DNA of 64,000 nucleotides from Acidimicrobiaceae bacterium (lineage in GTDB: Bacteria; Actinomycetota; Acidimicrobiia; Acidimicrobiales; Ilumatobacteraceae): the NCBI GenBank assembly GCA_947450115.1, contig CANFUE010000006.1, positions 1 to 64,000 of the forward strand, in the 5' to 3' direction. The notes under the pieces were generated by a model. The model did no database searches. It saw nothing but the letters and a program-made list of their open reading frames with translations, and had not been told where the DNA came from. Shown piece after piece: positions 14,287 through 35,078 of this stretch. How positions within the stretch are numbered: position 1 is the stretch's first letter; every line of letters starts with the position of its first letter. The position numbers and the translations under genes were made by a program.

Positions 14287-14571
14287 GGCGGCTCCTTTGA
14301 TGGCTCACCGCGCCGTCGAGGCGTGCGGTGTTATTAATGGTGGTGGGGAGATATATGTCTAATGCTTGTAATAAGGGCTGTGAATTGTGGATAACAGTGG
14401 TATTTACCAAGTGGGGAAAAGAAAACGACCCACGCTGGTTATCCACAGTTTTCCACAGGGGGAGGCGAACATGTGTGCGCTGCGGGGGATAAACCCCACT
14501 TTGTACCCATTTCAGCGCACGTTGTCTACAGCGCAAACCACATGTTGTCCCCAGAGCAAACGACATCACAT
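14287..14571. promoter_or_regulatory. dnaA-dnaN intergenic region, candidate oriC with DnaA boxes
   Basis: TGTGGATAA 14386-14394, TTATCCACA 14439-14447, TTTTCCACA 14449-14457. Confidence 0.7.
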
Positions 14572-16003: not shown

Positions 16004-16104
16004 TTATACACAATGTTATCCACAGGCTGTGGATCGTTTTGGGCAGTTTTTCGTGTTTTTCGCCACTTTTCTGGTGGGAAATACACCATAGCAGATTATC
16101 CACA
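16004..16104. promoter_or_regulatory. DnaA-box cluster upstream of dnaA
   Basis: TTATACACA 16004-16012, TTATCCACA 16016-16024, TGTGGATCG 16028-16036, TTATCCACA 16096-16104. Confidence 0.85.
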
Positions 16105-18848: not shown

Positions 18849-19457
18849 GTGGCGCGCACCGTTCACGAGATCTTGACCGACGCACAACGCATCGGCGCGC
18901 TTGGCCTTCGCCCTATTAGCGAAGTCATCGAGCACGCCGGTGCGTTTGCTTTTGCACTCCCCGACTCGTGCCGCCAAGTTGTAGACCTCGGGTCGGGTGC
19001 GGGGGTTCCTGGTTTAGTAGTTGCCGAGCTACGGCCCGAGCTGCAGATCACCCTGGTCGACCGCCGGGCAAAACGCACCGATGCGCTCGAGCGTGCCATC
19101 GCTTCGTTGGGCTGGGGCGACCGAGTGCGCGTGGTCTGCGCTGACGTCGGCATGCTCACGCGACAAGACGAGTGGCGGGAAACTTTTGACGCGGCGATGT
19201 CGCGCGGATTTGGCCCACATGAAACCACACTGAAGTACTCAGCTGCACTGGTACGACCAGGCGGAGTGATCTTGTTGAGCGAGCCGCCGGCAAGCACCAA
19301 GAGCCGCTGGGAACCGACCGTCGTCGAAGGCGCTGGGCTCATAGGGCCAGAGTTCGTACAGCACCTGGCCCGCTTCGTCAAAAAACGGAGCGTTGAAAAA
19401 GATCCCCGAATGTTCCACGTGGAACATCAGAAATCGGCAAAATGGGGGCCAAACTGA
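18849..19457 (+). CDS. rsmG: 16S rRNA (guanine-N7) methyltransferase RsmG
   Basis: VVDLGSGAGVPGLVVAELRPELQITLVDRRAKRTDALERA. Confidence 0.95.
   Translation: MARTVHEILTDAQRIGALGLRPISEVIEHAGAFAFALPDSCRQVVDLGSGAGVPGLVVAELRPELQITLVDRRAKRTDALERAIASLGWGDRVRVVCADVGMLTRQDEWRETFDAAMSRGFGPHETTLKYSAALVRPGGVILLSEPPASTKSRWEPTVVEGAGLIGPEFVQHLARFVKKRSVEKDPRMFHVEHQKSAKWGPN
19411..19426. promoter_or_regulatory. parS site (inside rsmG 3' end)
   Basis: Perfect palindrome TGTTCCACGTGGAACA. Confidence 0.92.
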
Positions 19458-19487: not shown

Positions 19488-19503
19488 TGTTCCACGTGGA
19501 ACA
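19488..19503. promoter_or_regulatory. parS site (upstream of parA)
   Basis: Perfect palindrome TGTTCCACGTGGAACA, 77 bp from the first copy. Confidence 0.93.
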
Positions 19504-19555: not shown

Positions 19556-20332
19556 ATGTCAACCACCGTGTCGGGGCCCCGCATCATCGCTATTTCCAAT
19601 AATAAAGGTGGCGTAGCGAAGACCACTACCACCGTCAACCTTGGCGCCTGCTTCGCAGAACTGGGCTTGCGGACACTCATTATTGACCTCGACCCGCAGG
19701 GCAATGCTTCGTCGTCTCTCGGCATCGACACTCGCGATCTCGAGAACACCATCTATGACGTGCTCATTCAAGAGGTGCCGCTGGAAGATGCGGTGGAGCC
19801 CACCGCGGTCAAAAACCTTTTCATCGTTCCCTCCAACATCAACCTGGCCGGAGCAGAAATTGAGCTCGTGTCGGCCTTCGGACGCGAAAATCGCCTCCGC
19901 AACGCCATTGCCCCCGTTGCCGATCAGTGGGACTACATCCTCATCGACTGTCCCCCGTCGGTTGGTTTACTCACGGTAAACGCACTCACTGCCGCAACGG
20001 AAATTATTACCCCTGTGCAAACGGAATATATTCCTCTCGAAGGAATTGAGATTTTGTTGAAGAATTTGCACCTCATTCGCAAGAACTTGAACCCCAGCCT
20101 CCCCGACCCCACCTTCTTATGCGTGATGTATATGCGTAATAACTTGGCCGATCAGGTAGTGGCGGAGTTGCGCAATAAATTTGGAGAGCGCGTGTACAAG
20201 ACGGTGATCCCGCGCAACGTACGCTTGAGTGAAGCCCCATCATTTGGACAGCCCATCACCACCTTCGATACCGGTTCTTCTGGTGCCAAGGCGTATCGGG
20301 CAGCAGCAAAGGAGATTGTCAGTGGCGCGTAA
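19556..20332 (+). CDS. parA: Chromosome partitioning ATPase ParA/Soj
   Basis: IAISNNKGGVAKTTTTVNLGACFAELG; VLLIDLDPQGNASS-type motif; VRLSEAPSFGQPI. Confidence 0.97.
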   Translation: MSTTVSGPRIIAISNNKGGVAKTTTTVNLGACFAELGLRTLIIDLDPQGNASSSLGIDTRDLENTIYDVLIQEVPLEDAVEPTAVKNLFIVPSNINLAGAEIELVSAFGRENRLRNAIAPVADQWDYILIDCPPSVGLLTVNALTAATEIITPVQTEYIPLEGIEILLKNLHLIRKNLNPSLPDPTFLCVMYMRNNLADQVVAELRNKFGERVYKTVIPRNVRLSEAPSFGQPITTFDTGSSGAKAYRAAAKEIVSGA

Positions 20333-21233
20333 AAGTGGATTAGGAAAGGGTCTCGGAGCCCTCATCACCGCCGACCTTGTGGAGAAAACCGAGGTGGGTG
20401 CAGCAACTGGAGTTGATGGCCCATTGCTGCGCGATATCCCTGTGCAGTCCATTGAGGCAAACCCGCATCAACCCCGCGTGCATTTCGACGAAAGCGCACT
20501 CTCGGAACTCACCGACTCCATTCGTGCAATTGGCGTGTTGCAACCCATCTTGGTGCGCCAGGTAGCCGATGGAAAGTATCAACTCATTGCGGGCGAACGG
20601 CGCTGGCGTGCAGCAACGCGAGCAGGCCTTGCCACAGTTCCTGCAGTTGTGCGACCTACCGACGATATTGCATCGGTAGAACAAGCACTGGTGGAAAACC
20701 TCCATCGCCAAGATCTCACTCCACTGGAAGAAGCTTCTGCTTACCAACAGTTGATGGACGACTTCGCCTTTACACATGAAAAAATCGCCACCCGCGTGGG
20801 AAAAAGTCGCTCGGCTATTACGAACGCATTACGTCTCTTGACATTGCCACCAAGCATTCAGCATCTCTTGGCCGATGGTCGTTTAGCTGCGGGTCATGCG
20901 AAGGCAATTTTGGGTACTCCCGACCGTGCCTTCCAAGAGCAGTTGGCGCGTCGCGCAGTTGACGAAGGTTGGTCGGTGCGTGCAGTAGAAGACGCAGTTC
21001 GCGAGCGCCAGGGCGGTAAGTCCATTGTCGACGTGGAAGAGCCTGCGCAACCCACGGGCAAAAAGCCGGGGCTGCGACCACCAGGACTATTAGAACTGGA
21101 AAACCTCTTAAGCGAGTTTCTTGCGACCAAGGTGACCGTGGCAATGAACGGGAAACGCGGGCGGGTAGGCATAGATTTTGCTGACTTAGAAGACCTGGAA
21201 CGGATCTATCGCAAGATGACCGAGCAGGCCTAA
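20322..21233 (+). CDS. parB: ParB/Spo0J/Noc partition protein
   Basis: MARKSGLGKGLGALI (GTG start); ANPHQPRVHF; GERRWRAATRAGLATVPAVVR; VENLHRQDLTPLEEASAYQQL. Confidence 0.97.
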   Translation: MARKSGLGKGLGALITADLVEKTEVGAATGVDGPLLRDIPVQSIEANPHQPRVHFDESALSELTDSIRAIGVLQPILVRQVADGKYQLIAGERRWRAATRAGLATVPAVVRPTDDIASVEQALVENLHRQDLTPLEEASAYQQLMDDFAFTHEKIATRVGKSRSAITNALRLLTLPPSIQHLLADGRLAAGHAKAILGTPDRAFQEQLARRAVDEGWSVRAVEDAVRERQGGKSIVDVEEPAQPTGKKPGLRPPGLLELENLLSEFLATKVTVAMNGKRGRVGIDFADLEDLERIYRKMTEQA

Positions 21234-21286
21234 CCCGCTAAAAGTCTTGATGTCTAGGCGAGGGTGATGTCAACCTCGTCTAGAGG

Positions 21287-21365
21287 TTACACACAGCCTG
21301 TGGATAAACCTGAGGATAACGCTGGGAAAACCTTGTGTATACAAGGGGGATAAACCTGTGGATAC
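21287..21365. promoter_or_regulatory. Phased DnaA-box-like array downstream of parB
   Basis: TTACACACA 21287, TGTGGATAA 21299, TGAGGATAA 21311, TGTGTATAC 21334, GGGGATAA about 21346, TGTGGATAC 21357. Confidence 0.75.
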
Positions 21366-21371
21366 AACGGG

Positions 21372-22349
21372 CTACTGCTGAACTTGTTGTTGCTTCAACA
21401 CGAGCGACATCGCCTCGGCAACTTCGGGGCCATGTTGGGTAATGACATCGAAGGGTCCAAGGCTGCACATCACCGCCGGCATCCGTGTTTCACGCAAAAT
21501 GGGGAGCCGCATACCGACGCTATTCACCACCAGGGTAGGAATTGCCGCGCGCAGGGCATCGGCAATTTTGTTACTCAGCAATTCGCCGCCCGCCGAACTA
21601 AATCCGGGCACTGCGTAAAACGCAATAGTGCATTCAGCTTCGGCGTGTGCTTCCAGCCCAATATAGGTGTCGGCATGAAAGTGATTAGCTGCAAGTACGT
21701 GGGCGGGCACGTCGGGCTCATCGACAAGCATGACGATTTCATGGGCATCACGCAGCGCGCGTGAAATGAGACGAGCAACTCCACTGAGCCCACCAAATTG
21801 CCCCACTACAACGCGGCGCAATCTTCTTTCGTCGCCCATCGCGCGAAATCGTTCGGAGTCGCGCAAAGAAGAGATACCCGGGCCTTCTCCGGACTGCGAA
21901 CTCAGGCGCTCGAGTGCACCAACGGTGTCGTTGCTGCAAATGCCGTCAATAGAGAGACCAGCATTTTTTTGAAACTCGCTGATGGCACGAGCAAGGAGCG
22001 GCCCGAAAATGCCATCAACACGGCCGCAGTCGAACCCCAAGCGCGACAGCAGTGATTGCAGTTGCGTGACATCATCACCACGAAAGTTGGGCGACGTGAG
22101 ATACAGCATGCGATCTCCAAGAGACCACGATGCTTCAACGAGTGCGCTCCATGCAGCAATATCGCACACTCCATCGGTGCGTAAACCGCGTGATGCTTGG
22201 AACTCCACTAAAGCTTTTTCAGTGGCAACACAAAAGAAACTCTCCTCATCGAGAGAGTGTTGAATGAAGCCACAACTCCGTAACCGCCGCTGGAGATCGC
22301 GGACGGTCTCGTTGCGTTGGCCAGCAGTTAGAGGGAAGGGGTCAGAAAT
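21372..22349 (-). CDS. CwlM-like protein: two peptidoglycan-binding domains plus amidase_3-like domain
   Basis: VTQLQSLLSRLGFDCGRVDGIFGPLLARAISEFQKNAGL; upstream in-frame VRDLQRRLRSCGFIQHSLDEESFFCVATEKALVEFQASRG; position after trxA. Probable ATT start at 22349; ORF track starts at GTG 22208. Confidence 0.75.
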   Translation of the reverse strand: MSDPFPLTAGQRNETVRDLQRRLRSCGFIQHSLDEESFFCVATEKALVEFQASRGLRTDGVCDIAAWSALVEASWSLGDRMLYLTSPNFRGDDVTQLQSLLSRLGFDCGRVDGIFGPLLARAISEFQKNAGLSIDGICSNDTVGALERLSSQSGEGPGISSLRDSERFRAMGDERRLRRVVVGQFGGLSGVARLISRALRDAHEIVMLVDEPDVPAHVLAANHFHADTYIGLEAHAEAECTIAFYAVPGFSSAGGELLSNKIADALRAAIPTLVVNSVGMRLPILRETRMPAVMCSLGPFDVITQHGPEVAEAMSLVLKQQQVQQ

Positions 22350-35001: not shown

Positions 35002-35078
35002 TTATCCACAGAACTCACCCGATACAGCACAGGCTTACACACAGACTTATCCACAAGTCTTACCCCTAGTAATCCACA
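35002..35078. promoter_or_regulatory. DnaA-box array in rplI-dnaB gap
   Basis: TTATCCACA 35002, TTACACACA 35035, TTATCCACA 35047, TAATCCACA 35070, plus weaker TACAGCACA at 35023. Confidence 0.78.

Follow-up and report, generated by a model that had tools for sequence, protein, structure and literature searches.

A DnaA-box module conserved between parB and cwlM in Acidimicrobiales, a probable origin-proximal site of DnaA control

This study focused on a dense array of DnaA-box-like 9-mers behind parB in a metagenome-assembled genome (MAG) of the Ilumatobacteraceae (Acidimicrobiales-type), and asked whether it serves as a replication origin or as a site that acts on DnaA. Detailed knowledge of DnaA-control sites outside oriC is limited to E. 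coli and a small number of further model species, and the hosts considered here are freshwater and marine bacteria with an unstudied cell cycle; a literature search found no experiment on the DnaA of this order. The window, that is the whole stretch of DNA analysed, comprised the opening 64 kb of contig C6 in the 2.09 Mb assembly, and its relatives were Ilumatobacteraceae and Acidimicrobiales MAGs together with the isolate Ilumatobacter nonamiensis.

Anatomy and enrichment of the array

The array consists of five same-strand DnaA-box-like 9-mers and one inverted box, all at the positions given in a preliminary description of this DNA (Table 1). It lies between two convergent genes, parB and a cwlM-like gene. 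The gap runs from the parB stop (21233) to the point where the cwlM-like ORF ends (21372), measures 138 bp and is mostly filled by boxes. Upstream of its listed GTG start at 22208 (minus strand) the cwlM-like frame stays open (347 aa open frame), and translation probably begins before that codon. The second box group overlaps a hairpin-like CCTTGT-GTAT-ACAAGG; it is recognisable across the genus alignment and is not required family-wide. A coding origin of the repeats was rejected, since both ORFs end outside the boxes, as were promoter regulation of a neighbour gene, no gene starting at the gap, and parS function, no parS site being found within it.

Table 1. Features of the window at and around the parB-cwlM gap
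Feature	Position	Strand	Sequence or remarks
Origin unwinding element, dnaA-dnaN gap	14359..14394	-	TTATCCACA-ATTCACAGCCCT-TAT TAC AAG CAT TAG (DnaA-trios)
Mirror-image three-box module	16004..16036	-	TTATACACA, 3 bp, TTATCCACA, 3 bp, TGTGGATCG; upstream of dnaA
Two identical parS-like palindromes	19411-19426, 19488-19503		TGTTCCACGTGGAACA; between the two modules
parB	20319..21233	+	TIGR00180; transcribed towards array; longest ORF opens at 20229
Strong hairpin	21253..21284	+	TCTAGGCGAGG...CCTCGTCTAGA; directly before three-box module
Conserved three-box core (33 bp)	21287..21319	+	box I, 3 bp, box II, 3 bp, box III
Inverted box I	21287-21295		TTACACACA; opposite orientation to boxes II, III
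Box II	21299-21307	+	TGTGGATAA
Box III	21311-21319	+	TGAGGATAA
Second, less conserved box group	21334..21365	+	TGTGTATAC, then tandem pair GGGGGATAA / TGTGGATAC
Box	21334-21342	+	TGTGTATAC
Box, first of tandem pair	21345-21353	+	GGGGGATAA
Box, second of tandem pair	21357-21365	+	TGTGGATAC
cwlM-like peptidoglycan-binding-domain gene	21372..22208	-	transcribed towards array

The number of boxes exceeded chance: across the window, 19 near-boxes (≤1 mismatch) were observed against 10 expected, and 0/100 shuffles reached 19. Of the 15 exact copies of TGTGGATAA in the assembly, 8 fall within the window. At 40 family loci, the parB-cwlM gaps held 35 exact boxes where dinucleotide shuffles gave an expectation of 0.04, and 39/40 of these gaps carried at least one near-box; their near-box density was about 9 per kb, compared with about 0.1 per kb in the (mostly coding) rpmH-parB DNA of the same loci. 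The array had also been described as denser than the dnaA-dnaN gap. This held per bp, with three near-boxes in 144 bp here against three in 288 bp there, but the dnaA-dnaN gap carries the unwinding element, whose construction is different. The module in the parB-cwlM gap and the one upstream of dnaA hold the two best tandem pairs of the 2.09 Mb. Two more tandem DnaA-box pairs with 3-bp spacing were seen elsewhere in the assembly (G000 C33:1019-1039 and C36:3509-3529).

The same-strand boxes follow one another at steps of 12, 23, 11 and 12 bp, which had been taken to place them all on one helical face. That reading fails, because each 12-bp step turns the next box by about 51 degrees: with 10.5 bp to the turn, the five boxes stand at about 0, 51, 120, 137 and 189 degrees, a drift of about half a turn. 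The fixed, conserved feature of the geometry is the 3-bp spacer between boxes, not a helical face.

Conservation within the order and a mirror-image module upstream of dnaA

Conservation in relatives, on which the preliminary description had made its proposal depend, was borne out. The three-box module (≤6 mismatches in total) was present in 79 of the 98 distinct parB-cwlM gaps of the family and in 94/98 at a looser cut-off, and in 16/25 gaps from other families of the order (up to 20/25 with the looser cut-off), while shuffled controls gave 0. Its orientation was strongly biased (85:4 in the family, 17:2 in the other families). The consensus core is an inverted box, 2-3 bp, a box, 3 bp and a box; 3-3 spacers dominate even when anything from 0-13 bp is allowed, and a spacer of 5 bp between boxes I and II occurred in only 3/75 family gaps. 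The same array was found in many independent assemblies, and a weaker form of the module, ACACACAGACTGGGGATGAACCTGTGGATAA, is present in the isolate Ilumatobacter nonamiensis (L165), so an artefact of MAG assembly was rejected.

Outside the order the picture is different. No near-box was found in the convergent parB-cwlM gap of 31 sister-order genomes of the class, and none of 30 such gaps from sister-order genomes with the same gene order held the three-box module; in 20 loci sampled from the phylum's other classes there were no boxes after parB, save one stray near-box. Within the order, four lineages (L079, L081, L082 and L088) are without the module, and given this loss it is not essential everywhere. 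In another (L055, G009) no cwlM-like gene was found between parB and trxA, and an exact DnaA box persists behind parB, which suggests that the element goes with parB. The family counts are slightly low, since an over-extended cwlM alignment shortened the gap of L054 (G005), where the module is present at G005:C97:24737-24769; L085, L090, L096 and L099 offered no usable gap. MAG fragmentation, redundant relatives and loose mismatch cut-offs affect the exact counts, but leave the difference between the order and its sister orders intact. Five MAG records (L132, L133, L161, L162 and L139) are titled Bifidobacterium breve or Rhodocyclaceae, yet encode Ilumatobacteraceae-type proteins (≤92% identical to those of the window), and their titles look mislabelled.

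The module is also specific in its placement. Throughout 2.0 Mb of origin-region DNA from the family and order, modules with ≤5 mismatches occurred only in the dnaA-rpmH (81 loci) and parB-cwlM (89 loci) gaps. When 101 whole family genomes were scanned there were 73 module matches among the matches listed, and 0 to a reversed control pattern; again among the matches listed, at least 36 sit directly behind parB, about 20 lie on the same contig and ahead of dnaA (as read from coordinates), and a dozen are on other contigs.

The dnaA-rpmH gap carries the module in 66/70 family, 17/24 other order and 24/26 sister-order loci, and this upstream copy is class-wide; most of the further actinobacterial loci studied had it too. 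One locus (L302) matches the consensus with zero mismatches, and several upstream modules of this genus have TGTGGATAA-CCA-TGTGTATAA as boxes II-III. The two modules share box order, orientation and spacers (2-3 and 3 bp), but the upstream copy lies near the dnaA start whereas the parB-cwlM copy lies at two gene ends, in one order only, and as a mirror image. The parB-cwlM module is a lineage-specific second copy of the dnaA-upstream module, mirrored about 5.3 kb away, and it gives a comparative handle on an element common to much of the phylum. The two parS-like palindromes between the modules are 77 bp apart, around the end of rsmG and 5' of parA. A further DnaA-box cluster was noticed between rplI and dnaB (window 35002-35078; TTATCCACA twice, TAATCCACA and TTACACACA), with near-boxes in 24 of the 27 family genomes in which that gap was measurable; through it, DnaA possibly controls the gene for the replicative helicase.

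One reading of this symmetry is that the modules are looping partners, DnaA on the parB module contacting DnaA on the dnaA-upstream module, so that a loop of about 5.3 kb with the parS sites would help or restrain orisome assembly. The rpmH-parB segment is indeed flanked by the same module on either side, as mirror images, the parS sites fall inside that segment, and bipartite origins with DnaA-mediated loops occur in B. subtilis and H. pylori. To our knowledge, however, the bipartite origins described so far extend over roughly one gene instead of 5 kb; the parB module is lacking in the sister orders and in the remainder of the sampled phylum, and its constant position may reflect gene order rather than distance. 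We consider such looping rather unlikely.

Replication origin and transcription termination as improbable readings

The preliminary description had left room for the array to be the true oriC or a second origin element, and had suggested a search for a DnaA-trio unwinding element beside it. Across the class, the unwinding element was found in the dnaA-dnaN gap, with the layout CTGTGRATTGTGGA, a GC patch and DnaA-trios, in agreement with the published basal unwinding system (PMC8287927). Its core was present in 66/66 family dnaA-dnaN gaps, at least four consecutive DnaA-trios in 33/66 (shuffled control 9/340), and core plus DnaA-trios, the combination taken as the test, in 0/98 family parB-cwlM gaps. 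According to PMC2607554, the M. tuberculosis origin likewise lies between dnaA and dnaN. Cumulative skew minima of three relatives fell 7-32 kb from dnaA, on the gyr side and never on the cwlM side, at a poor resolution and with one truncated contig. The parB-cwlM array is not oriC. Its dense boxes do lie close to dnaA and parAB, and the skew minimum is broad, but an origin here would also turn the rpmH-parB genes into lagging-strand genes, and it is extremely improbable that this gap serves as an origin, be it the true one or an additional one.

The hairpin that precedes the module (segment MFE -23.5 kcal/mol in the window; modest conservation, with a family/order mean z of -0.95) is a probable parB terminator, and would shield the module from transcription. 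Taken with the convergence of the genes and with the TGAGGGTT/AACCCTCA-like flanking repeats found in several genera, it could mean that the whole gap is a bidirectional terminator or DnaA roadblock, the boxes serving transcription termination. Against this, sister orders share the convergent genes with zero boxes, what is conserved is 9-mers and 3-bp spacers with no stem, and the segment downstream of the module is barely structured (mean z -0.45), which makes a role in termination very unlikely.

Probable DnaA control and comparison with known sites

We regard the array as probably an origin-proximal DnaA assembly site that adjusts DnaA availability or activity. That DnaA binds here, that the site exerts control and in which direction are all inferences. 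E. coli DnaA favours box pairs 2 or 3 bp apart in vivo and loses binding when the spacer is wider (PMC11317965), by which preference the geometry of the module would be that of a DnaA dimer site. Three DnaA molecules would be expected on the core, two bound head to tail on boxes II and III across the 3-bp spacer and a third on inverted box I, facing box II; in this genus, additional DnaA would occupy the 21334-21365 boxes. Being about 7 kb away from the unwinding element, the module should be duplicated very soon after replication starts, and little transcription should cross it because both flanking genes end in the gap. It would tune the pool of free or active DnaA after firing, either by titration or by a DARS-style action on the nucleotide state of DnaA. 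Titration would be the most likely mode and the simplest outcome, with precedent in the clusters of B. subtilis and Streptomyces, and only the architecture points to a DARS-like role. Three points weigh against this reading: with 3-6 boxes, a single element could take up little DnaA unless DnaA were scarce, a few lineages of the order have lost the module, and its conservation next to parB and parS could be a matter of partitioning, not of initiation control.

The preliminary suggestion of a titration or reactivation locus gains support from the box order and orientation of the module, which are those of DARS sites, and from its position, which is like that of the B. subtilis and Streptomyces clusters. 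E. coli DARS1, which we place in the bioD-uvrB gap, reads TTATCCACT, 5 bp, TGTGGATAA, CCA, TGTGTATTA, and DARS2 reads TTATTCACC, 5 bp, TGTGGATAG, AGT, TGTGAAGAA; the placement of DARS1 is backed by a spacing equal to that of DARS2, which itself matches the flanks of published deletion primers. In DARS cores, box I lies opposite to boxes II and III, and the I-II spacer is equal in DARS1 and DARS2 (PMC5742627). The module has the same three boxes, with box I in the opposite orientation to the other two and a II-III spacer of 3 bp, but its I-II spacer is 3 or 2 bp instead of 5 bp, and because of this difference it is not filed as a DARS. It also differs in being origin-proximal, DARS sites lying well away from oriC, and no regulatory region of the IHF/Fis type was identified at it. 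Reactivation as at DARS, with ADP-DnaA head-to-head on boxes I and II releasing ADP and recharging as ATP-DnaA, would account for the shared box order, orientation and identical II-III spacer; the I-II spacer, constant between the two E. coli sites, and the location adjoining oriC speak against it, and we hold it to be a fairly doubtful mode. The arrangement could have arisen independently, both systems using near-consensus boxes. The wider proposal that Actinobacteria own DARS-type recharging, the dnaA-upstream module and the Acidimicrobiales-specific parB copy both driving DnaA nucleotide exchange beside oriC, seems unlikely.

Among other sites, E. coli datA is likewise a non-coding DnaA-box site, but the best scan of it shows no such triple (8 mismatches), and datA needs IHF. 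In E. coli, datA, DARS1 and DARS2 lose their effect when they are transcribed through (PMC5010248), a sensitivity that a location in a convergent gap would fit. Boxes are enriched near the E. coli origin (PMC12371093), a further precedent for titration, and in B. subtilis and Streptomyces origin-proximal DnaA-box clusters repress untimely initiation (cited in PMC4585315). Dense near-consensus boxes close to, but outside, oriC are found here too. With a DARS box order, one syntenic place across an order and absence in the sister orders, the module offers a natural experiment on how such sites function. Compared with the B. subtilis and Streptomyces clusters, which likewise place near-consensus DnaA boxes near the origin but outside it, the boxes here differ in forming a three-box module of fixed design, found in one order at a single syntenic place (the parB-cwlM gap).
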